Origin: Paucibacter sp. DJ2R-2
Lineage (GTDB): Bacteria > Pseudomonadota > Gammaproteobacteria > Burkholderiales > Burkholderiaceae_C
Assembly (NCBI RefSeq): GCF_025717675.1
Contig: NZ_JAJIRT010000009.1
Location: forward strand, 176,056 to 240,055
Direction: 5' to 3'
Length of the DNA stretch: 64,000 nucleotides
The notes beneath the pieces are model-generated. The model was not told the origin of the DNA. It saw only the letters and a program-made list of their open reading frames with translations, and did no database searches. Position numbers and translations under genes: made by a program. Below are positions 6,913 to 64,000 of the stretch, in pieces. Positions within the stretch are counted from its first letter, which is position 1; every line of letters begins with the position of its first letter.

Positions 6913-8724
6913 ATGAATTTGAGCGCCATGCTCCGAATGTTCAGCATCCGCACCCGCATGATCGGCGCCATTGCCATGGTTCTGGCCTTGCTGGTGATCG
7001 TGGGTGGTGTCGGCCTGTACGGCATGAACTCGCTGCGCGGCCAGAGCCAGCAGTTCGCGGAAAAGTCGGTGGGTGATGCCCATCACATGACCTTGTTGAT
7101 CGAGGCCATGGGCAATCTGCGGCGCTATGAAAAGGACATGGTGATCAATCATGCCCAGGCCGATCAGGTCAAGACATACCACCAGAAATGGGATGAAGCC
7201 CGCAAGGCGTTGGAAGATAACGTCAAGGAGTTGATGCACGGCCACGAGGACGCCAACAACAAGGTGCTGGGCCAGATCCTGCCCTTGATGAACGACTACG
7301 TGGCCAAGGCTCAACCCGTCCTGGGACAGTTGGAATCCGGGAGCATGGCCAGCGCCAGCGACGCCAATGCCGCGCTGAAGGGGGCCAAGGAACACGCACA
7401 AGAGGCCGAGAAGCTGTTGGCCGAACTGCGCAAGTCACTGACCCAGGAATCAGACAAGGCCATGAAGGCCAGCGAGTCCACGCAAGGCACGGTGTTCACT
7501 GTGTTCATCGCCGTGCTGATTCTCAGCTCGGTGATCGTGGTGCCCCTGACCTTGCTCAATATGCAGAGCATCTGCACACCGCTGGCAGAAGCCGGCGCCT
7601 TGGCCGATGCCATTGCCAAGGGTGACTTGACCATGACCGCCAAGGAGGTGGTCGGACAGGATGAAGCCTCGCATCTGATGAACTCGCTGCAAAACATGCA
7701 GCAGGCCCTGCAAAGTCTGGTCGGTCATCTGCGCGTTTCGGCCGACAGCATCCGCACGGCCTCGGTCGAGATTGCCACCGGAAACCAGGACCTGTCGGGC
7801 CGCACCGAGCAGACGGCGTCCAACCTCCAGCAGGCGGCTTCCTCCATGGTGCAGCTGACCGGCACGGTCAAGCAAACGGCGGATTCGGCGCGTACCGCCA
7901 ACCAGTTGGCCAATTCGGCCTCCACCGCAGCAGCCAAGGGCGGTGATGTGGTGGGCCAGGTCGTCGCGACCATGGACGAGATCAACACCAGCTCCAAGAA
8001 GATCAGCGACATCATCGGCGTGATCGATGGCATCGCCTTCCAAACCAATATCCTCGCCCTGAATGCAGCCGTCGAAGCGGCCCGTGCGGGCGAGCAAGGC
8101 CGTGGCTTTGCTGTCGTGGCCAGTGAGGTTCGTTCGCTCGCTCAGCGCAGCGCCGAGGCCGCGCGTGAAATCAAGACCTTGATCGGCGCCAGCGTCGAAC
8201 GGGTCGAAACCGGCTCGCGCCTGGTGCAGGACGCCGGCACCTCGATGACCGAGATCGTCACCAGCGTGCAGCGCGTCAGCGACATCATTGGCGAAATCTC
8301 GGCCGCCGCCAGCGAGCAAAGCGACGGCATTGGCCAGGTCAATCAATCTGTGGTCCAGCTGGACCAAATGACCCAGCAGAACGCAGCCCTGGTGGAGGAA
8401 TCCGCGGCGGCTGCCGAAAGCCTGAAAGACCAGGCCGAGCGACTGGCCGAAGCCGTGGACCGCTTCCGGGTCACGGCCGAAGCCAAGCCCGCACATGGCG
8501 CAGGATTCGGAGCAGGCAAGTCTCGCCCACATGCATCGGCCAGCCAGCAGGCCGCAGCGCCCCGCCCGGCCGCCAGCAAGATGGTCAAGCCTGCTGCTGC
8601 CAGCCCGCGCCCGGCAGCAAGCCAGGCCTCGCACTCACCTGCACCGGCCGCACGCCCTAGCGCCCCAGCTCGTTCGCCGGCTCCTGCTCCGGCACAAGCC
8701 GAGGGCGACTGGGAATCGTTCTGA
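6913..8724 (+). CDS. Methyl-accepting chemotaxis protein, four-helix-bundle type, DWESF tail
   Basis: A 603-residue receptor. One membrane helix lies at about 13-38 and a second near 195-215, enclosing a helical periplasmic domain of about 155 residues of the 4HB_MCP kind. HAMP and the long cytoplasmic coiled coil follow. The hairpin tip reads [20 protein letters not shown], the universal receptor motif that binds CheA and CheW. After it comes a linker of about 95 residues rich in Ala, Pro and Ser, ending in DWESF. That tail matches the xWxxF pentapeptide that tethers CheR and CheB in enteric receptors. The ligand cannot be read from sequence. It is the first of three receptors in this operon. 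Confidence 0.94.
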
Positions 8725-55338: not shown

Positions 55339-56673
55339 ATGCGGCTCATGCTCGCTCTTGTCGCTTCCTTCGCCATGCTGCAGCCGCTGAGCGCCGCGCC
55401 CACGGCGCCGGCCGCCAGTGCCTTGCAGGCCAACCAGGACCTGAACGTCCTGCACTGGTGGACCTCGGCCGGCGAGCGGGCCGCAGCGGACCTGGTGGCG
55501 GCCCGCATGGCCGAGCAGGGCTTGCGCTGGGTCGACGGCGCCGTGGCCGGCGGCGGCGGCGGCGGCGCCATCAAGGTGCTGAACGAGCGCACCCTGCGCG
55601 GCCAAGCGCCGCAGGTCGCACAACTCAACGGCCAGGCCCTGCGCGAATGGGCAGAGCTGGGCCTGCTGCTGCGTCTGGACGGCGTGGCCCAGCGCCGCGA
55701 CTGGCGCAGCACCCTCTTCCCCCAGGTCATGAGCCAGCTCAATGTGCGCGAGCATGTGGTGGCCGCGCCCCTGGGCATCCACCGCATCAACAACCTCTAC
55801 CTCAACCTGGCCCTGTTCCGCCAGCTCAAGATCGAGCCGCCCAGCGACTGGGCCGGCGTCATGCGTGCGGCCAGCGCCCTGCGCGCGGCCGGCATTACGC
55901 CCGTGGGCTTCAGCGACGAGCCCTGGCAGGTGGCCACGGTCTTCGAGGCCATGCTGCTTGGCGAGGCCGGGCCGGCGCTCTACCAGCGCATGGTGGTGCA
56001 GCGCGACCTGCAAGCCTTCGACGACCCGGCCCTGGAGCGCAGCTTCAAGCGCCTGCGCGAATGGCGCAATCTGGCCGCGCCGGTCAGCGCAGGCAGCGGC
56101 AGCAATCAGATCGGCAACGCCAACCCCGGCGAGCGCCGCTGGACCGAGCTGGTGGCCGACTTTGCCGCCGGCCGCACGGCCATGCTGATCAGCGGCGACT
56201 GGGTGCGCGGTGAGCTCGGCGCGCTGGGCCAGGAAGGCGGGCGCGACTTCGAATGCAAGGCCGTGCCCGGCACGGCGCAAGCCCATCTCTTCAGCATCGA
56301 CACCCTGGCCATGCTCGCCGGCGACGGCAGCAAGCAGCCGGCACAAGAGCGCATGGCCGAGCTGCTGGGCAATGCCACGCTGCAGATCAGCTACAACCGC
56401 ATCAAGGGCTCGGTGCCGGTGCGGCGCGATGTGCCGGTCGACGAGCTGGACCTCTGCGCCCAACGCTCCTACCGATTGTTCGCCAACCCCGGCACGCCGC
56501 GCGTGCCCAGCCTGGTGCACCGCATGGCTTTTGATGAAGTCGGCAAGAACGCCTTCATCGAAACCGTGCACCGCTTCGCCCTCGACCCCAACCAGACCCC
56601 TGCCGCCGCGCAGCGCCGCCTCCAGGCCCTGTTGCGCGCACTCGGCCCGCGCCCCCCGAAAGCCCTGCCATGA
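55339..56673 (+). CDS. ABC-type sugar-binding protein (GtsA-like)
   Basis: A 444-residue periplasmic binding protein. The signal peptide MRLMLALVASFAMLQPLSAA starts at this ATG; a TTG-initiated form 32 codons longer is less likely. The opening LNVLHWWTSAGERAA and the glycine-rich AVAGGGGGGAIKVLNERTL with PQVAQLNGQALREWAE follow the glucose/mannose-binding branch of CUT1 proteins (GtsA of Pseudomonas). Importer permeases and ATPase are absent. Its stop overlaps the response regulator (ATGA), so it probably works with this two-component system, perhaps as the periplasmic sugar sensor. Confidence 0.85.
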   Translation: MRLMLALVASFAMLQPLSAAPTAPAASALQANQDLNVLHWWTSAGERAAADLVAARMAEQGLRWVDGAVAGGGGGGAIKVLNERTLRGQAPQVAQLNGQALREWAELGLLLRLDGVAQRRDWRSTLFPQVMSQLNVREHVVAAPLGIHRINNLYLNLALFRQLKIEPPSDWAGVMRAASALRAAGITPVGFSDEPWQVATVFEAMLLGEAGPALYQRMVVQRDLQAFDDPALERSFKRLREWRNLAAPVSAGSGSNQIGNANPGERRWTELVADFAAGRTAMLISGDWVRGELGALGQEGGRDFECKAVPGTAQAHLFSIDTLAMLAGDGSKQPAQERMAELLGNATLQISYNRIKGSVPVRRDVPVDELDLCAQRSYRLFANPGTPRVPSLVHRMAFDEVGKNAFIETVHRFALDPNQTPAAAQRRLQALLRALGPRPPKALP

Positions 56674-57386
56674 CCCGCACCATCCTGCTCGTCGACGACG
56701 ACCAGAAGATCCGCACTCTGCTCAAGACCTACCTCGAGAAGAACCAGTACGAGGTGCGCCTGGCCCACGACGGCGCCAGCTTCATGGCCGAGTTCGAGCG
56801 CTTCCGCGACGAGATCAGCCTGTGCATTCTCGACGTCATGCTGCCCGACACCGAGGGCTTCGCCCTGTGCCAGGCGGTGCGTCGCCGCTCCGATGTGCCC
56901 GTCATCATGCTGACCGCCAGCGCCGAGGAGACCGACCGCATCGTCGGCCTGGAGCTGGGCGCCGACGACTACATCGGCAAACCCTTCAACCCGCGCGAGC
57001 TGCTGGCCCGCATCAAGGCCATCCACCGCCGCAGCGGCCAGGAACGCAACCAGACGCCGCGCTACTTCCGCTTCAACGGTTTCACCCTCGATGTGCTGGA
57101 GCGCAGCCTGATCGACCCCGAGGGCGCGGCGTCGGCCCTCTCGGGCATGGACTTCCAGCTGCTCAAGCTGCTGGTCGAGCACCCCGGCGAGGTGCTGGAC
57201 CGCAGCCGCCTGGCCGAGGTGACGCGCGGCCGCGACCTCGGGCCGCTGGACCGCTCGCTCGATGTGCAGGTCAGCCGCCTGCGCCAGCGCCTGCAAGACG
57301 ACGGCAAGCAGCCGGCCCTGATCAAGACCGTTCGGGGCTCCGGTTATGTCTTTGCCACCACGGTCAACGCCTCGCATGCGCTATGA
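56670..57386 (+). CDS. OmpR-family response regulator (GltR-like)
   Basis: A 238-residue regulator. The receiver (1-120) has D55 in LCILDVMLPD, the acidic cluster VDDD near residue 10 and the lysine in IGKPFNP. The winged-helix domain fills about 130-232 (LSGMDFQLLKLLVEH, LDRSLDVQVSRLRQRL, KTVRGSGYVF). Together with a sugar-binding protein and a kinase it recalls GltR-GtrS beside the glucose importer of Pseudomonas. Assignment to that system is by context. It overlaps the genes on both sides. Confidence 0.92.
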   Translation: MTRTILLVDDDQKIRTLLKTYLEKNQYEVRLAHDGASFMAEFERFRDEISLCILDVMLPDTEGFALCQAVRRRSDVPVIMLTASAEETDRIVGLELGADDYIGKPFNPRELLARIKAIHRRSGQERNQTPRYFRFNGFTLDVLERSLIDPEGAASALSGMDFQLLKLLVEHPGEVLDRSRLAEVTRGRDLGPLDRSLDVQVSRLRQRLQDDGKQPALIKTVRGSGYVFATTVNASHAL

Positions 57387-58953
57387 AGCCGCGGGTCTGA
57401 ACGACACCCAGAGCTGGCCGCGCCGCAGCGTCGGCTTCTGGTTCGACAGCCTGCAGGGCCGCTTCACCCTGGCCATGCTGGCCGGCCTGCTGATCGTGCA
57501 GCTGCTGGTCAATCTGCTCTGGTACCGCCAGGTGGAGCTGCGCACCCGGCGCCAGGCCGAGCTGGCCGCCCACCATGTGGCCAGCGGCGTGCTCGGCGCG
57601 CTGCGGGCGCTGCGCGAGCTGCCGGCGCCCTACCGACCGCTGGTGATCGAGCAGCTGCGCACCATGGGCGGCACGCGCTTCCTGGTCTTTCTCAACAAGG
57701 GCGAAGTGCCGACGCGAGCCCTGCCCGATCTGCCACTGGCACGCTCGGTGGAAGCCATCGTGCGCCAGGAGATCAGCGCCCAGCTGGCGCCCGGCACGCC
57801 CATTCGTGTCGCCCTGGCCTCACCGCAAGGCCTGAAGGTGGCGCCCAGCGGCGCCCTGCTGGCCGACCTGCCCGACAGCTGGGTCGACCCCTCCCTGCTG
57901 GCCAGCGAGCGGCCGGCGCCTTTTTTGGTCATCCAGGTGGAGACAGAACCGGGGCAATGGGTCTACCTCAGCAGCGCCATGCCCGACCCCTATTTTCTGG
58001 AGCAGCTGGACTTCTTCACCTGGCAACGCCTGGCCCCGCAGCTGCTGACCCTGTGCCTGGCCCTGATCCTGACCGTGATCGCCGCGCGCGCGCTGACCCG
58101 CCCGCTGCGCGGTCTGAGCCGGGCCGCGGCCTTGGTCGGCCACCGCACCACACCACAACCGCTGCGCCTGAGCGGCACCTCGGAGGTGCGCCGCGCCATC
58201 CAGGCCTTCAACGACATGCAGGAACGCATCCGCCGCTACCTCAGCGACCGCGAGCGCCTGTTCGCCTCCATCTCGCACGATCTGCGCACGCCCATCACAC
58301 GCTTGCGTCTGCGCAGCGAGCTGCTCGACGACCCCGCCGTGCAAGACGAGTTCCATGAGGACCTGGACGAACTGGACATGATGGTCAAGACCGCGCTGCA
58401 AATCGTCAAGGACACCGACATTCACGAGAACCGCGCGCCCGTGCGCATCGACCTGGTGCTGCAGAAGATGGTGCGCGACGCGCGCATGACCGGCCAGCAA
58501 ATCGAGCTGAAAGAGCTGCCCCTGACGGTGTTCGGCAAGCCCCTGGCCCTCAAGCGCGCACTCGGCAACTTGCTGGACAACGCCATGTTCTACGGCGCTG
58601 GCGCCCAGCAGCACCGCACCGAGTTGGAGATGGCCTCGGGCGAGCCCGGGAGCGCAGAAGCGGGTCAGGTCTTGCTGACCGTGCGCGACCACGGCCCCGG
58701 CGTGCCCGAAAGCGCCCTGGCCAAGCTCGGCCAGCCCTACACCCGGCTGGACCATGGCTCCAAGCTGCGCGGAGAAGGCCTGGGCCTGGGCCTGTCCATC
58801 GTGCGCGACATCGTCGCCGACCACGGCGGCAGCCTGCGCTTTCGCAACCATCCGCAAGGCGGCTTCGAAGTCCGCCTGGCCTTGCCCGGACATGAAGCCG
58901 CTGCCGCGCCGCGGCCTGAGCCCGCTGTCCCTTCTACCCCTTCCTCTTCATGA
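57376..58953 (+). CDS. Sensor histidine kinase of the sugar-binding operon
   Basis: A 525-residue EnvZ-type kinase. Membrane helices near 32-55 and 215-237 enclose a periplasmic domain of about 160 residues. HAMP, HisKA with H301 in SISHDLRTPITR, and an HATPase domain (LGNLLDNAMFYG, DHGPGVP, GLGLGLSIVRDIVADHGG) follow. The periplasmic part could dock the sugar-binding protein encoded first in the operon. The start MRYEAAGLN overlaps the regulator gene by 11 bases; ten more codons upstream are open but less likely. Confidence 0.92.
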   Translation: MRYEAAGLNDTQSWPRRSVGFWFDSLQGRFTLAMLAGLLIVQLLVNLLWYRQVELRTRRQAELAAHHVASGVLGALRALRELPAPYRPLVIEQLRTMGGTRFLVFLNKGEVPTRALPDLPLARSVEAIVRQEISAQLAPGTPIRVALASPQGLKVAPSGALLADLPDSWVDPSLLASERPAPFLVIQVETEPGQWVYLSSAMPDPYFLEQLDFFTWQRLAPQLLTLCLALILTVIAARALTRPLRGLSRAAALVGHRTTPQPLRLSGTSEVRRAIQAFNDMQERIRRYLSDRERLFASISHDLRTPITRLRLRSELLDDPAVQDEFHEDLDELDMMVKTALQIVKDTDIHENRAPVRIDLVLQKMVRDARMTGQQIELKELPLTVFGKPLALKRALGNLLDNAMFYGAGAQQHRTELEMASGEPGSAEAGQVLLTVRDHGPGVPESALAKLGQPYTRLDHGSKLRGEGLGLGLSIVRDIVADHGGSLRFRNHPQGGFEVRLALPGHEAAAAPRPEPAVPSTPSSS

Positions 58954-60542
58954 GCACACCCTCGCCCGCTGCAGCGCCCCATTTCGTCATCGTCGGCGGC
59001 GGCACCGCGGGCTGGATGACGGCCTGCCTGCTGGCGCGCCAGCTGGGCCCGGCGTGCCGCTACACCCTGGTCGAATCGAGCGAGATCGGCACCATCGGCG
59101 TGGGCGAAGGCTCCACGCCCTATCTGCGCGACTTCTTCCGCCAGCTCGGCCTGGAAGAGCGCGACTGGATGCCCGCCTGCCACGCCACCTACAAAGCCGG
59201 CATCCGCTTCCCCGGCTGGTCCACGCAGCCGGGCTACGAAAGCTATGTCCACCCTTTCTTCAACGAAGCCGACCGTCCGCTCGGCCAGGCCTTCATCCAG
59301 CAGGCGAACCTGCGCCGCCGCGGCGAGGATGTGGACGCCAACCCGGCAGACTTTTTTCTCGCCGCTGAACTGGCGCGTCAGCGTCGTGCGCCTGTCTACG
59401 GCCAGCCCGAGCACAGCCCGGCCACCGACTACGCGTATCACTTCGACTCCGGCCTGCTCGGCGCCTTTCTGAAACGCCATGGGCGAGAGCAACTGGGCCT
59501 GCAGCACTGCGTGGACACCGTGGCCGCCGTGGAGCGCCACGCCGAAACCGGCGACATCATGGCCTTGCGCCTGCAAGACAGCGGCCAGCGCCTGGAAGGC
59601 GATTTCTTCATCGACTGCAGCGGCTTTCGCGGCCTGCTGATCAACGAGACTTTGGGCGAGCCCTTCATCCCCTGGGGCGACCGGCTCTTCAACGACCGGG
59701 CCATCGCCATCCCCACGCCGCTGGAGCCCGAGCAGGACATCTCGTCCGAGACCACCTCCACCGCCCTGGGACACGGCTGGGCCTGGCAGATCCCCCTGAG
59801 CAGCCGCTATGGCAATGGCTACGTTTACAGCTCCGACTTCATCAGCGACGACGCGGCGGAAGCCGCCCTGCGCGCCCACCTGGGCCCGGCGGCCGAGGGC
59901 GCCAACGCCCGGCGACTCAAGATGCGCGTGGGCCGGGTGGCCCGACACTGGCGCCACAACTGCGTGGCCATCGGCTTGTCCCAAGGCTTCATCGAACCGC
60001 TGGAGGCCACGGCTCTGATGCTGATCCAATTCTCGGTGCAGCACCTGATCGAGGCGCTGCAATCGGGGGGCGGCAGCGGCACGATGGAAGACTTGCGCCA
60101 GCGCTACAACGCCCAGATCAACCAGATGTTCGACGGCGTGCTGGAGTATGTGCAGACGCACTACCTGCTCAACACCCGCGATGACAGCGACTACTGGCGC
60201 GCCAACCGGGCGCTCAAGCCCTGCTCCGAGCGCCTGGCTGAGCTGCTAAGGGCCTGGGACCAAGGTGGCGACTTCGACGCCGTGTTGAGCCGGCATGAGG
60301 CCGCGCTGATGTATCAGCGCCCCTCCTGGTATTGCCTGCTTGCGGGCATGGGGAGGTTCCCGGCGAGCACGGCCACCAGTCTGGCCCTGCCGGCACCGGC
60401 CATCGCGCTCAGCGGCCTGCAGGCCCGAGCTTCTTTGATGGACCAGACCCGAAGGTTCTTCATGCCGCATCGGGAGGCCCTGGCACGCCTGGGTCCGGGC
60501 CAAGCCCTGGGCTTAGGCAACAGCCTTGGCCTGAATCGGTGA
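58950..60542 (+). CDS. Flavin-dependent tryptophan-halogenase-family protein
   Basis: A 530-residue FAD-dependent halogenase-like protein. The FAD site GGGTAGWMTA starts at about residue 12. The catalytic lysine is in the conserved ATYKAGIRFPGW (near 83). The family signature WxWxIP appears as GWAWQIPLSS, and FIEPLEATALMLIQ follows near 350. Known members use reduced flavin and hypohalous acid to chlorinate or brominate tryptophan or other aromatics; many in carbohydrate-using proteobacteria have no known substrate. No flavin reductase adjoins it. Its start overlaps the kinase stop (ATGA), tying it to the sugar-sensing operon. Confidence 0.92.
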   Translation: MSTPSPAAAPHFVIVGGGTAGWMTACLLARQLGPACRYTLVESSEIGTIGVGEGSTPYLRDFFRQLGLEERDWMPACHATYKAGIRFPGWSTQPGYESYVHPFFNEADRPLGQAFIQQANLRRRGEDVDANPADFFLAAELARQRRAPVYGQPEHSPATDYAYHFDSGLLGAFLKRHGREQLGLQHCVDTVAAVERHAETGDIMALRLQDSGQRLEGDFFIDCSGFRGLLINETLGEPFIPWGDRLFNDRAIAIPTPLEPEQDISSETTSTALGHGWAWQIPLSSRYGNGYVYSSDFISDDAAEAALRAHLGPAAEGANARRLKMRVGRVARHWRHNCVAIGLSQGFIEPLEATALMLIQFSVQHLIEALQSGGGSGTMEDLRQRYNAQINQMFDGVLEYVQTHYLLNTRDDSDYWRANRALKPCSERLAELLRAWDQGGDFDAVLSRHEAALMYQRPSWYCLLAGMGRFPASTATSLALPAPAIALSGLQARASLMDQTRRFFMPHREALARLGPGQALGLGNSLGLNR

Positions 60543-60836
60543 AACGTAGGACATGCCCCCCCGTAAGCCCTGATGCGCACCTGCAGCCGCAAGCTGGCCT
60601 AACACCAGGAATTGCTGGCAACATACGCTCCGATTTCTGTTGCCCAAGGCCGCACGCGATTCCCCGCCTGAGCAATTTGTAACAGACGCCGCTTTTGACG
60701 CCCAAATTAATGACCCTGCACACGCCCTCGAATCGGCAAAAAATGCAAGCCCCACAAGAACTTGGCGTCACTTCCGCACGCCCTGTTATTGCGACGTCAG
60801 CCGTGATAAACGGCGTTTGCTACCGATATACAACAC
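60543..60836. other. Gene-free region between the halogenase and the cassette array
   Basis: These 294 bases hold no credible protein gene on either strand and no sign of an integron integrase, which would be expected on the minus strand here. Composition falls from GC-rich to mixed. GCCTAAC at 60597-60603 resembles an R'' box but has no matching arms. No attC-like fold of 57 or 111 bp precedes the first cassette boundary. Confidence 0.6.
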
Positions 60837-60843
60837 GTTGGGC
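60837..60843 (+). other. First cassette boundary (attI or secondary site)
   Basis: GTTGGGC fits the GTTRRRY core. The following bases (GTTGGGCATCAT) match the complement of cassette 1's R'' end at 11 of 12 positions, so recombination occurred here. The left flank has no attC arms, so this is either a remnant attI or a secondary chromosomal site. Confidence 0.7.
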
Positions 60844-60846
60844 ATC

Positions 60847-61116
60847 ATGTCGTTGCGTTCCTTCCTAAGTAAAGAGCGCTCTCGCGATCGCACGTTGTTC
60901 GCTGATTGTGGCATCGGCTTCGTCGCCTACGCGGCATGGCACTTCTGGCGAGGTAGCTGGGGTGTTGCTTGCTTTCTTGGGGGCTTCGGCTTGCTCTCCC
61001 TGGCCGCTGGCGCATTGCTGAGCGAACAGCGCCTCAATACACTGGCCACGGCACTCTTACTCATCAATTTCGTCGCTGCCGCGGCAGCACTTGTCGCAGG
61101 GGTGGGCGTCCAATGA
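60847..61116 (+). CDS. Cassette 1: small membrane protein
   Basis: An 89-residue protein whose ATG lies only four bases after the cassette boundary, as is common in integron cassettes. Two or three hydrophobic stretches (GIGFVAYAAWHFW, ACFLGGFGLLSLAAGALL, ALLLINFVAAAAALVAG) make it an integral membrane protein. The N-terminus is basic (SKERSRDR). No family is recognised. Translation may depend on the upstream flank since there is almost no leader of its own. Confidence 0.65.
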   Translation: MSLRSFLSKERSRDRTLFADCGIGFVAYAAWHFWRGSWGVACFLGGFGLLSLAAGALLSEQRLNTLATALLLINFVAAAAALVAGVGVQ

Positions 61117-61144
61117 GACCTTATATGTACCGAGTCGCGATGAC

Positions 61145-61255
61145 GCCCAACCAGTCGCTCGAGTGGACCTTCACCAGCTGGCCGCACTCCGCTCAGCAGG
61201 TAATCATCGCTTCGTGCGGCCAGCCGGTTCCGGCCACTCAGCTTCAACGTTATGG
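61145..61255 (+). repeat. attC1 (111 bp)
   Basis: R'' is GCCCAAC at the left end and the R' core GTTATGG is at the right. The inner arms pair as an imperfect hairpin, for example GAGTGG with CCACTC and CTGGCCGCAC with GTGCGGCCAG. The sequence is close to attC2 and attC5. Confidence 0.9.
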
Positions 61256-61258
61256 CTC

Positions 61259-61801
61259 ATGAAATACCGAAGTCCCGTGCCTGAAGATTCGGAGCTCGGT
61301 TCCCGGATCCTGAAGGTGAACCATGCGGGTGAGCACGGCGCAATCTGCATCTACACCGGACAGATCATTGCCGCTCGGCTCACGGCGCGGGACATGGTCA
61401 TGGAGCTCGAGGAGTTCAAGTCCCACGAGAAGCGGCATCGGTACGTCTTTTGGTCTGAACTTCAGCGCCGGGGGCGCCGGCGATGCCGAAGCTATTGGCT
61501 TTGTGCGTTGGGAGGATTCGTCCTTGGCCTGGCTACAGGGCTCCTGGGACGCAAGGCAATTGCTTCAACTACAGTTGCGGTCGAGCGAGTCGTCCTCCGC
61601 CACCTCGAGCATCAACTGGAGTTATTGCGAGGCAAAGACGAGGCGGCGGTCTTGGCCATCTCCTCGATAGTCGAGGATGAGAGGCGGCATCACGATCACT
61701 CGGCAGAGCACTTGCATGGCGGCAAGTTCTGGCCGAAGGTGCTTTCGCCGGTTATCGCAGCATCTACTGAGGCGGTCATATGGGTGGGAATGCGGGCGTG
61801 A
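61259..61801 (+). CDS. Cassette 2: COQ7-family diiron protein
   Basis: A 180-residue protein. It begins SELGSRILKVNHAGEHGAIC, matching the RxxxVNHAGExGA opening of COQ7/demethoxyubiquinone hydroxylases. Candidate iron ligands are E in NHAGE, E and H in SHEKRH, E in VERVV and the E-x-x-H set in EDERRHHDH. A central hydrophobic hairpin (ALGGFVLGLATGLLGRKA) matches the membrane-binding helices of COQ7. COQ7 adds the last hydroxyl in ubiquinone synthesis using a diiron centre. A gene of this kind in a cassette is unusual. The start lies three bases after the boundary core. Its TGA overlaps the attC2 R'' extension. Confidence 0.82.
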   Translation: MKYRSPVPEDSELGSRILKVNHAGEHGAICIYTGQIIAARLTARDMVMELEEFKSHEKRHRYVFWSELQRRGRRRCRSYWLCALGGFVLGLATGLLGRKAIASTTVAVERVVLRHLEHQLELLRGKDEAAVLAISSIVEDERRHHDHSAEHLHGGKFWPKVLSPVIAASTEAVIWVGMRA

Positions 61802-61802
61802 G

Positions 61803-61913
61803 CCATAACCAGTCGCTCGAGTGGACCTCCGCCAGCCGGCCGCGCTATGCTGCCTGTCCATTTTCAGCTCCGCGCGGCCAGCTGGCTGCGGCCCCTCAGC
61901 TTCAACGTTGGGT
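61803..61913 (+). repeat. attC2 (111 bp)
   Basis: R'' is CCATAAC (within GAGCCATAAC) and R' is GTTGGGT at 61907-61913. It shares CCAGTCGCTCGAGTGGACCT with attC1 and its hairpin arms pair GGCCGCGC with GCGCGGCC. Confidence 0.9.
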
Positions 61914-61979
61914 TTCACAGGCTGCCTGTCGCGCAACACTAGCTATTTGCCCCCAGTCTCCAAGATCGGACGTAAGTCT

Positions 61980-62345
61980 ATGCATCAAGTTCCCAGTCGT
62001 CGGCTTGCCACGCGAAGCAGGACCTTAGTCCGTCTCATCAGCCGCGCACTGACATCGGCTGCATTGCTGGGCGCGGTGATTGGATGCAGCGAGGAGCCTC
62101 CTTCGCCTGTCGTAAGGCTCGAAGTATCGGCAACCGGCGCCTACTCGCTTGCCGGTCAGCCTGTAGCCTCAGCCGAACTCACGAAGCAACTGCAAGCGCT
62201 CAGGAGTCAGACACCACGAGTCGAGTTGCATGTTCTCGCTGATCGCTCCGCGAACTATCAGTTTGTCGGAGCAGCCATCGCTGCCGCACAAGCCGCACAG
62301 ATAGCCAAGCTTCGGGTAGACACCTTGCACGAAGAGCAGAAGTGA
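61980..62345 (+). CDS. Cassette 3: lipoprotein with ExbD/TolR-like domain
   Basis: A 121-residue protein. The N-terminus is basic, then LTSAALLGAVIGC ends in a lipobox (VIGC, cysteine near residue 36). The mature part follows the ExbD/TolR periplasmic fold: VRLEVSATGAYSLAGQPV, a helix ELTKQLQALRS, the strand VELHVLADRSANYQFV and a final helix with IAKLRVDTL. ExbD and TolR normally have a membrane helix with an essential aspartate that works with ExbB or TolQ; here a lipid anchor takes its place. It may bind the same partners without proton coupling. A leader of 60 bases separates the ATG from the boundary. The fold assignment is by eye. Confidence 0.65.
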   Translation: MHQVPSRRLATRSRTLVRLISRALTSAALLGAVIGCSEEPPSPVVRLEVSATGAYSLAGQPVASAELTKQLQALRSQTPRVELHVLADRSANYQFVGAAIAAAQAAQIAKLRVDTLHEEQK

Positions 62346-62346
62346 A

Positions 62347-62457
62347 ACCCAACCCTGCGCTCAACCGGACCCGCAACGGCACGCCGCCTTCGGGCCTCAT
62401 TTCATTCTGGCCCGCCGGCGTCCTGCCGTCGCGGGCCGGTTAGCTGCAACGTTAGGC
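62347..62457 (+). repeat. attC3 (111 bp)
   Basis: R'' ACCCAAC and R' GTTAGGC (62451-62457). It belongs to a different subfamily from attC1 and attC2, sharing CGCAACGGCA and CCTCATTTCATTCTGG with attC4. Confidence 0.9.
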
Positions 62458-62463
62458 GTCGAA

Positions 62464-62925
62464 ATGCAGACCGTCGAACTCATCCGTGCTGAAGTAGGTG
62501 CAAAGAAGGTTAGCTGCACCACGACACTTCAAGCGCATTGCGGCCTCGGTCTTGCCGCCGCGAAGAAAGCCACCGACGCCTTGCTTGAAAAGAAGTGCCC
62601 GAGGGTCTCATTGCAATCCGCTGAGTCGGCAAGGTCGCTTATTGTTTCGTTGGCCGGGTTGGGTGTCGTCGCTCGTTTTGCAGAGGGGCCTAACTACAAC
62701 CCCCAGGAACGCCTCACCTCGGCCTTGGCAACCGTGCAGGCGCTACTCGAGCCGGAAACTCTTCGCACGTGTGAGTCGCTGTCTACTCACGGGGAGTGGG
62801 AACTAGCGCTTTCGCATTGCCTTGCACACTTGTCGATGCGGACGAACGCCACTACAGCATCCGCCGTCAAATCACTGGGGCAACTGGCCATCGAATTTGG
62901 CATTGTGGGAAGTGGTCAAAAATGA
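62464..62925 (+). CDS. Cassette 4: hypothetical protein with L7/L12-like segment
   Basis: A 153-residue soluble protein. Residues about 20-75 (CGLGLAAAKKATDALLEKKC, then SAESARSLIVSLAGLGVVARF) resemble the C-terminal fold of ribosomal protein L7/L12 (GLGLKEAKDLVE...EEAEKIKKQLEEAGAKVE). The second half is helical and includes THGEWELALSHCLAHL, a pattern seen in some small immunity proteins. Both readings are tentative. The ATG lies seven bases after the boundary core. No direct function can be given. Confidence 0.6.
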   Translation: MQTVELIRAEVGAKKVSCTTTLQAHCGLGLAAAKKATDALLEKKCPRVSLQSAESARSLIVSLAGLGVVARFAEGPNYNPQERLTSALATVQALLEPETLRTCESLSTHGEWELALSHCLAHLSMRTNATTASAVKSLGQLAIEFGIVGSGQK

Positions 62926-62944
62926 TGTGCCCTAGAATGCCGAC

Positions 62945-63055
62945 GCCTAACCCTTCCATCGAAGGGACGCGCAACGGCATGCCACGCATGGCCCTCATTT
63001 CATTCTGGGCCAAGCGTGTCCCGCCGCTGCGCGCCCCTCATGTCAAACGTTAGGC
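62945..63055 (+). repeat. attC4 (111 bp)
   Basis: R'' GCCTAAC and R' GTTAGGC (63049-63055). Inner arms include GGCCCTCATTTCATTCTGGGCC, whose ends pair as a loop-closing stem. Same subfamily as attC3. Confidence 0.92.
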
Positions 63056-63065
63056 GTCACAAAGA

Positions 63066-63515
63066 ATGCGCAACCTTCGCAGGATGATCGAACGCTGGAA
63101 GACCGAAGGGTTAGTTCTGTTGCCCCCAGAGCCCGCGGCGGCAGTTTGCGAGACCTTCGCAAAGGTTGGTGCAAAGGCGACAGCGGATGTCGTTTCTATG
63201 TATGCAATATTGGGAGGAATGCCGGAGATGGACAAGGAGTACTGGCGCCTCTGGACGCTATCCGACATACAGATCGAGAACACAGCGGACGTTGCAACAG
63301 GAGTTCTCTTTTCTGACTACCTCATAAGCTGCTGGAGCTACAGACTGATTCCAAACGGAGATGACACAAGCGCAGTGTTCGCCGATTACTTCAACGACGA
63401 CAAATGCATACGCGTAGCCGGCAGCCTCGAAGAATTCTTCGGCATGTACGCTGAGGATTCGTACCAAGTGCTTGAAGGTCCGCATCCGGGCCCGGATTCA
63501 AGAAGTGACGCCTAA
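63066..63515 (+). CDS. Cassette 5: SUKH (SMI1/KNR4)-like protein
   Basis: A 149-residue soluble acidic protein. After a helical start (LRRMIERWKTEGLVLLPPEP), the core VLFSDYLISCWSYRLIPNGD and the ending VAGSLEEFFGMYAEDSYQVL follow the SUKH superfamily pattern, whose members often act as immunity proteins against bacterial toxins. No toxin gene is seen beside it, as expected for a cassette. Its TAA stop lies within the R'' box GCCTAAC of attC5. Composition is clearly lower in GC than the chromosome. Confidence 0.65.
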   Translation: MRNLRRMIERWKTEGLVLLPPEPAAAVCETFAKVGAKATADVVSMYAILGGMPEMDKEYWRLWTLSDIQIENTADVATGVLFSDYLISCWSYRLIPNGDDTSAVFADYFNDDKCIRVAGSLEEFFGMYAEDSYQVLEGPHPGPDSRSDA

Positions 63516-63620
63516 CCCTTCGCTCGAGTGGACCTCCGCCAGCTGGCCGCGCTACTCTGACTGTATATTTTCAGCTTCGCGCGGCCAGCTGGCTCCGGCC
63601 CCTCAGCTTCAACGTTGTGC
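63510..63620 (+). repeat. attC5 (111 bp)
   Basis: R'' GCCTAAC and R' GTTGTGC (63614-63620). Arms pair GGCCGCGC with GCGCGGCC. Closely related to attC1 and attC2 (CGCTCGAGTGGACCT, CCTCAGCTTCAACG), yet it carries a GCCTAAC end like attC4. Confidence 0.92.
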
Positions 63621-63632
63621 GTCGCTAGATTG

Positions 63633-63851
63633 ATGACCGAGATGATCGACCGTTTCATTCCGCAGATTGAGGCTGCTCAAGCGCAAGGAGCCGTTGTCTT
63701 GCTCAAGTGGGACGGGGAAAGGTCAAACCTTCGCTGCACGGTTGTCATCACGCGCCAGGACACGGACTATCTTTGGCGCAGAGACTGCGACGATATCGCG
63801 GCGGGATTGGCAGAAGCGCTGCACGACTACGAGGCTAGGCATGCTCATTGA
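63633..63851 (+). CDS. Cassette 6: 72-residue hypothetical protein
   Basis: A small soluble protein starting MTEMIDRFIPQIEAAQAQGA. The middle (AVVLLKWDGERSNLRCTVVI) looks like a beta hairpin, and the end (DIAAGLAEALHDYEARHAH) a helix. This alpha-beta-beta-alpha plan is common among cassette-encoded small proteins of unknown function. An in-frame TTG near the boundary could add six codons; the ATG is preferred. No family recognised. Confidence 0.6.
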   Translation: MTEMIDRFIPQIEAAQAQGAVVLLKWDGERSNLRCTVVITRQDTDYLWRRDCDDIAAGLAEALHDYEARHAH

Positions 63852-63875
63852 ATCTGGCGTGCTTTCACACGCAAC

Positions 63876-63932
63876 GCACAACCTGTCATTGGAGCGGACC
63901 GCCTTCGGCGTCCGCTCACTTTCACGTTAGAG
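63876..63932 (+). repeat. attC6 (57 bp, short form)
   Basis: R'' GCACAAC and the R' core GTTAGAG. The arms GAGCGGACC-GCC and GGCGTCCGCTC pair closely around a TTC loop. It has about half the length of the five attC sites before it and resembles the short sites of mobile integrons. Confidence 0.85.
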
Positions 63933-63938
63933 CGCACC

Positions 63939-64000
63939 ATGCCTACTCGCGTCAACGGCGTAATCCCAGAAGACATCTCCCTTGACTCCATGTCCGGGCA
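63939..64000 (+). CDS. Cassette 7: start of a protein (partial)
   Basis: An ATG 10 bases after the boundary core opens a frame that stays open to the right edge (about 20 residues, MPTRVNGVIPEDISLDSMSG). Its position matches the other cassette genes. Nothing can be said of function. Confidence 0.55.
   Translation, partial: MPTRVNGVIPEDISLDSMSG

Follow-up and report, generated by a model that had tools for sequence, protein, structure and literature searches.

Clusters of attC sites lacking integrases (CALINs), i.e., at least two attC sites with no integrase gene (intI) nearby, were as numerous as complete integrons in a large survey (2,961 versus 2,760; available text of PMC9024848). Off-target insertion and loss of intI have been proposed as their origins (excerpt of PMC8618304). 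In Xanthomonas, according to the accessible part of PMC12444791, CALINs occupy conserved positions, and their mobilization in trans by a functional IntI is stated. In a Shewanella genome that contains a complete integron as well, a prophage carries a CALIN headed by an attI of its own (available text of PMC9892861). Here we describe a likewise attI-headed array at the right end of a 64,000-nucleotide stretch (the window; bases 176056 to 240055 of contig C47) of Paucibacter sp. DJ2R-2 (G000; 5.8 Mb in 47 contigs). It is virtually certain that this is an integron gene cassette array, and sequence comparison indicates with high confidence that its head is an attI-like site without an adjacent intI. 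We read the array as the probable relic of a complete integron that lost its intI and whose platform may still be served in trans (probability, roughly 0.6).

Like a CALIN, the array has two or more attC sites and, on the side visible before the contig ends, no neighboring intI; unlike the CALIN definition, it has retained an attI-like head, and this one genome contains several heads of that kind. The Shewanella case, as far as the available text goes, concerns one prophage, whereas here several chromosomal loci are involved, some of them shared between species, with graded loss of intI. Compared with a complete integron, the window locus has the attI head (by homology) and no intI beside it. 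The likenesses to a sedentary chromosomal integron are the chromosomal site, attC families shared within the genome, cassettes mostly of unknown function, and an IntI with a LexA-type box on contig C22; the differences are the lack of intI at the window locus and a cassette stock spread over several loci. Regarding class 1 integrons, the C22 IntI was 69 to 70% identical to plasmid IntI1 over 85 to 86% of its length (eight matches listed) and is not an IntI1; a Paucibacter IntI has been named a close chromosomal relative of IntI1 (72%; excerpt of PMC7784347). A second attI type, found at the start of contig C44, shares AACAAAGTT with the attI1 core (available text of PMC12901181, which also describes shortened attI sites inside cassettes). 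This likeness is limited to the core, since neither the window attI nor the attI on contig C51 of the congeneric genome G011 matched any of 72,556 plasmid records. IntegronFinder 2 runs no attI search outside class 1, where attI is poorly described (available text of PMC9024848). A literature search, mostly confined to open-access papers, found no report of several chromosomal attI-headed arrays without intI in one genome. The window array is ordinary as an array, and the set of intI-less attI platforms is unusual.

The array and its attI-like head

The attC sites of integron cassettes have a GTTRRRY-like core consensus at the end of imperfect palindromes. Because our models R1 and R2 contain the window's own sites, the case for the attC sites rests on a covariance model (R3) trained on 20 attC sites from G003, G005, G006, G008, G011, and G012 only, and that for attI homology on pairwise alignments. 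R3 matched all six window sites at the same bases (E values, 1.9e-34 to 1.7e-6).

60612..60837, plus strand: attI-like site, no intI adjoining it; the crossover lies between G60837 and T60838 (ACAACACG^TT); by homology to the intI-adjacent site of C22 and by profile R2, which contains this copy
60613..60624, minus strand: trace of the intI start, complement of ATG TTG CCA, start codon 60624-60622; by alignment with intI-bearing and intI-less heads
61145-61255, plus strand: attC 1, including the first bases of the next cassette (R3 E 3.4e-24; fold z -3.85)
61803-61913, plus strand: attC 2 (R3 E 2.6e-34; fold z -4.11)
62347-62457, plus strand: attC 3 (R3 E 2.6e-19; fold z -8.38)
62945-63055, plus strand: attC 4 (R3 E 4.5e-19; fold z -8.60)
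63510-63620, plus strand: attC 5 (R3 E 1.9e-34; fold z -5.38)
63876-63932, plus strand: attC 6, short type (R3 E 1.7e-6; fold z -3.40)

In the 64-kb window at an E value of ≤0.1, R3 gave besides these six sites only four minus-strand shadows of them, the next match having an E value of 0.13; Rfam 15 gave no attC match, only chance matches, in window positions 56000 to 64000. The bottom-strand fold of each of the six sites beat 200 of 200 shuffles (z, -3.4 to -8.6). With the G of GTT as the first position, the 5' end of each cassette paired with its own R'' lead-in in unbroken runs of 7, 11, 12, 11, 12, and 9 bases, whereas the 30 mismatched pairings gave runs averaging 3.9 bases, two of them reaching 10. 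To our knowledge, the standard account is that such pairing arises only from circular cassettes. These results bear out a first-pass annotation of the window, which had called an integron cassette array at the right end, had noted the complementarity of the 5' ends to their own R'' lead-ins, and had proposed a covariance-model check; the six sites were recovered where it had placed them, by a model built from other species and blind to the DJ2R-2 genome.

All of the open reading frames (ORFs) run in one direction, as they would in an ordinary operon with chance hairpins. We rejected that explanation, which retains next to no probability, on the basis of the six attC matches with an independent model, the own-end pairing, and the absence of a shared gene order in relatives among the matches listed. 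The first-pass annotation had named an identical gene order in all close relatives as one of the findings that would refute an integron array. No such order was found in 17 congeneric genomes among the matches listed, in which only cassette 2 recurred beyond attC size outside DJ2R-2 (G004, 86% over 578 bases; G011, 74% over 511 bases).

The head was recognized by a blastn search of window positions 60000 to 60880 against the DJ2R-2 genome, in which the last third of the query matched. The matches were C22:467034-467281 (73%; E value, 1.2e-28), C38:2505-2709 (76%, cassette 1 included), and C12:514755-514940 (72%). The C22 match sits immediately in front of a 384-aa IntI (468 bits against TIGR02249; cut-off, 265), the position that an attI occupies; the window head was 72.7% identical to this intI-adjacent sequence over 253 bases, and the two copies share their end point, the crossover ACAACACG^TT, from which cassette 1 runs in the window. 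To the left of the window attI lie the trace of the first intI codons and then a tryptophan halogenase gene. A tblastn search with eight IntI proteins detected no further IntI similarity within 3.5 kb upstream of the window attI, and no LexA-type box was found in the window head. The array start at position 60837 given in the first-pass annotation thus holds for the cassettes, which begin at 60837/60838; the element as a whole begins earlier, at about 60612, with an attI-like head that had been overlooked.

Cassettes can also be placed by IntI at chromosomal attG-type sites, which are not attI sites. Insertions of this kind are known (available text of PMC12444791), and lone attC sites far from arrays occur in the DJ2R-2 genome (C1, C4, and C29). 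For the window array, such an off-target origin is very improbable: the homology to an intI-adjacent attI extends over about 250 bases of the head, which is more than a short GTT site, and the insertion site is thus related to attI.

The cassettes and the flanking gene are as follows.

58950..60542, plus strand: flanking chromosomal gene, tryptophan halogenase family (PF04820; E 6.7e-128), outside the array
60838..61249, plus strand: cassette 1; ORF 60847-61116, 89 aa, no family match
61250..61907, plus strand: cassette 2; ORF 61259-61801, 180 aa, COQ7 family (PF03232; E 6.3e-36)
61908..62451, plus strand: cassette 3; ORF 61980-62345, 121 aa, C-terminal part of ExbD/TolR (PF02472; E 1.4e-9)
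62452..63049, plus strand: cassette 4; ORF 62464-62925, 153 aa, no family match above cut-off
63050..63614, plus strand: cassette 5; ORF 63066-63515, 149 aa, no family match above cut-off
63615..63926, plus strand: cassette 6; ORF 63633-63851, 72 aa (ATG start), no family match above cut-off
63927..64000, plus strand: cassette 7, cut off by the contig end; the last 77 contig bases equal the end of contig C12

Seven plus-strand cassette ORFs were counted, as in the first-pass annotation, the seventh being cut off at position 64000. Contig C47 ends at this base, the last of the window, so the array is cut off and its full length is not measurable. In a search of cassettes 1 to 6, cassettes 1, 4, 5, and 6 had no family match above the cut-off, in line with the earlier statement that the cargo is mostly of unknown function; that statement does not extend to the COQ7 and ExbD/TolR domains of cassettes 2 and 3. 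The cargo of cassette 2 is a diiron-type hydroxylase of the COQ7 family, which at 48.1 bits fell below the NCBIfam cut-off of 180 for the ubiquinone enzyme; the copy in G011 is more distant than that in G004. It had 1,937 relatives at an E value of ≤1e-3, and those named among the best 120 were from Paucibacter, Undibacterium, Lysobacter, Stenotrophomonas, and Ottowia.

Other integron platforms in the genome and in relatives

The module profile R2, built from five copies including that of the window, found four copies in the DJ2R-2 genome (C12, C38 start, C22, and C47). Overall, at least four array heads had an attI and no intI (C47, C12, C38 start, and C44 start), and two heads had intI. The C12 head follows an ABC-transporter-like gene and the C38 start head an acetyl-CoA-hydrolase-like gene (both named by reading the sequence). 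The attI type at the C44 start ends in the same 21 bases as the intI-adjacent attI of G011:C51. Two weaker possible heads lie on C44 at 50 kb and on C41 at 254 kb. A further attI-like end type, ...TTTTGTCGCCCCAAATTAACGTT, precedes the arrays of L142 (about 7380-7390; G000:C41) and L125 (G011:C73). intI was found at exactly two places: on C22, with a LexA-type box, and near the right end of C38, where it is split from an attI-like end by an insertion sequence (IS)-like insertion (by reading). More than one IntI is found in 22% of IntI-carrying genomes (available text of PMC9024848). The genome had 31 attC matches at an E value of ≤1e-6, mostly near contig ends; those far from arrays (C1:1285049 [L144], C4:44364 [L145], and C29:342513 [L143]) are possibly single-cassette off-target insertions or decayed arrays.

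Relatives likewise carry intI-less attI heads, partly at shared loci. Among 18 congeneric genomes, DJ2R-2 included, the module was matched 22 times in 13 genomes at an E value of ≤1e-3 (24 matches at ≤0.01 in the fetched stretches), intI at ≤1e-60 was present in 13, and attC was present in all 18. An IntI open frame lay upstream of 4 of the 24 modules, and two others were at contig ends; of the 20 R2 modules that lack an IntI immediately upstream, 13 were followed by attC in the stretch examined. In a family sample of 299 genomes, searched with stricter filters than the genus, the module was matched at an E value of ≤1e-5 in 16 genomes from 9 of 141 genera, and 11 of these 16 genomes had at least two matches.

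Two of the relatives provided further observations. In G012, two attI copies that are 97.9% identical over 237 bases (L133 12932-13168 and L134 13549-13786) head different arrays at two contig ends; no intI was detected in this genome at an E value of ≤1e-60, and one may be hidden in a collapsed repeat where both contigs end. G000:C22 (L045) and G011:C51 (L146) are the same locus, with flanking proteins up to 99% identical; their intI genes share only 68% identity, which would be consistent with replacement of the integrase at this locus. The short attC 6 of the window (63876-63932) is 99% identical to L146 7601-7667 over 67 bases including the start of the next cassette, with different genes in front, which suggests that attC sites may be exchanged between cassettes.

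Loss of intI and of the LexA-type box

We examined 58 heads, 10 of which were added by eye from array ends with their crossovers also placed by eye, and counted boxes in 55 (L133, L134, and L212, with <500 bases upstream, were left out). Of the 19 heads with intI, 12 had a perfect CTGTN8ACAG within about 330 bases, as did 3 of the 7 heads that retain an intI relic; none of the 29 heads lacking intI had one. The Fisher test for heads with versus without intI gave a P value of 7e-7, which is too optimistic because the 29 intI-less heads include five pairs that are the same locus in two species (24 loci). For the 17 genus intI matches, the attI region was examined in 9 and not in 8. Coverage in the "full" intI class was summed over pieces, so some of its genes are broken; in one head of this class (L047), an insertion lies between intI and attI. 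The family heads L218 and L219 are weak partial matches.

Relics of intI ranged from 23 to 173 aa overall (23, 60, and 75 aa in the genus; 29 to 173 aa in the family). In L136, 58 aa from the C terminus of IntI survive at 95% identity, with the box still present. Across seven intI-less loci, the mean pairwise identity was 0.61 and 0.40 in the bins holding the C22 box and 0.75 and 0.89 in the last 20 bases before the crossover, which are among the best-conserved parts of the module. Two further conserved blocks of the intI-less heads lie at about -230 (0.70) and -155 (0.77), around GATTTGATGGCAA and GCGCGGCTTTTGACG. A consensus promoter scan of the module found none.

Because relics of intermediate and varied lengths occur in relatives, we infer loss in place: the natural reading is that intI was lost where it stood, that its promoter decayed, and that the recombination end was kept. 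The window head very likely originated by such a loss. An attI module acting as a mobile unit, copied without intI to several loci where each copy then gathered cassettes, is a less plausible source, although many intI-less modules start at about the same point, 9 to 12 codons into intI (by eye), and the two G012 copies on separate contigs are nearly identical. The many lengths of the relics point instead to loss in place, and both G012 copies are at contig ends, so that an intI may sit in the missing repeat; we regard the mobile-unit explanation as improbable. The idea, drawn from the alignment, that the left edge of the module could itself be a site for IntI was dropped because intI relics of other lengths exist.

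Cassette turnover and service in trans

Three intI-less heads are each common to two species (84.1, 91.1, and 88.0% identity over about 1.5 kb up to the crossover), and intI was thus most likely already gone in their common ancestor. Behind these three crossovers, no common cassette was found, only attC-sized pieces or nothing (in stretches of 2,542/5,588, 483/4,070, and 6,000/675 bases, one member of each pair being short). Within DJ2R-2, cassette 1 recurs once, as the first cassette behind the intI-less attI at the C38 start. The two attI sites are 71% identical over 165 bases and the cassettes directly behind them 92% identical over 412 bases, so the two cassette copies probably diverged more recently than the two sites did. 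In two pairs of contig ends, C47/C12 and C22/C38 start (the latter one intI-bearing, one intI-less), the two ends have exactly 77 bases in common, beginning at a cassette boundary. Ends shared in this way typically arise when an assembly breaks at a sequence that both contigs contain; for C47/C12, the pair searched, there was no third copy of the stretch in the assembly. A misassembled junction at the window locus was considered and rejected: the window attI is only about 71 to 73% identical to the compared copies, which makes misjoining through a 77-base overlap unlikely, and the same gene-attI-array layout occurs at shared loci in the assembly of another species.

The cassette data fit an IntI-driven exchange between platforms. 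The different cassettes behind intI-less attI sites common to two species suggest recombination in trans. In the mechanism that we propose, a complete integron at the window locus would have lost its intI in place, an IntI encoded elsewhere in the same genome would insert and excise the window's cassettes in trans, and selection would keep the crossover end of the intI-less attI.

Alternatively, the array may be a dead relic in which recombination ceased with the loss of intI; the differences between species would then stem from ancient losses, homologous recombination among arrays, or events that preceded the loss of intI. CALINs have been proposed to be degraded integrons (available text of PMC9024848), the perfect LexA-type box is gone from all 29 intI-less heads, and some of these heads had no attC in the stretch examined. 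However, where two species share an intI-less head, their cassettes differ starting precisely at the crossover, cassette 1 is far closer to its second copy than the two attI sites are to each other, and the crossover end is well conserved in intI-less modules. We consider a dead relic unlikely, though the most probable of the alternatives.

Several observations weigh against continued service in trans after loss in place. The pair C12/G011:C73 diverges about 250 bases before the crossover, and G001 and G005 share 265 bases and smaller pieces downstream of it. The 77-base identities cover the start of the shared cassette and not its whole length, and homologous recombination between arrays could also move cassettes. 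The window head has no orthologue in G011, which has the halogenase (84% aa identity) and no attI module there. No attC was found in the stretch examined behind 7 of the 20 intI-less R2 heads (L115, at a contig end, and L116, L118, L119, L120, L121, and L129), so some of these heads are empty or dead. A perfect box is also absent from 7 of the 19 heads with intI, and the blocks at -230 and -155 match the crossover region in conservation, with neither the crossover nor a consensus promoter accounting for them.

More tentatively, and at slightly less than even odds, the genome may hold a distributed integron in which a set of separate attI platforms on the chromosome depends on one or two integrases, one of which is controlled by a LexA-type box. 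Redundant intI genes and their promoters would have been lost, and orphan attI sites would be kept by selection as extra docking and expression sites, with cassettes moving between arrays throughout the chromosome. The findings bear on whether CALINs are dead remains, off-target insertions, or live platforms. If arrays lacking intI can retain a functional attI, then some CALINs would be active docking sites for a remote integrase, and the view that an integron has a single attI would not hold in this family.

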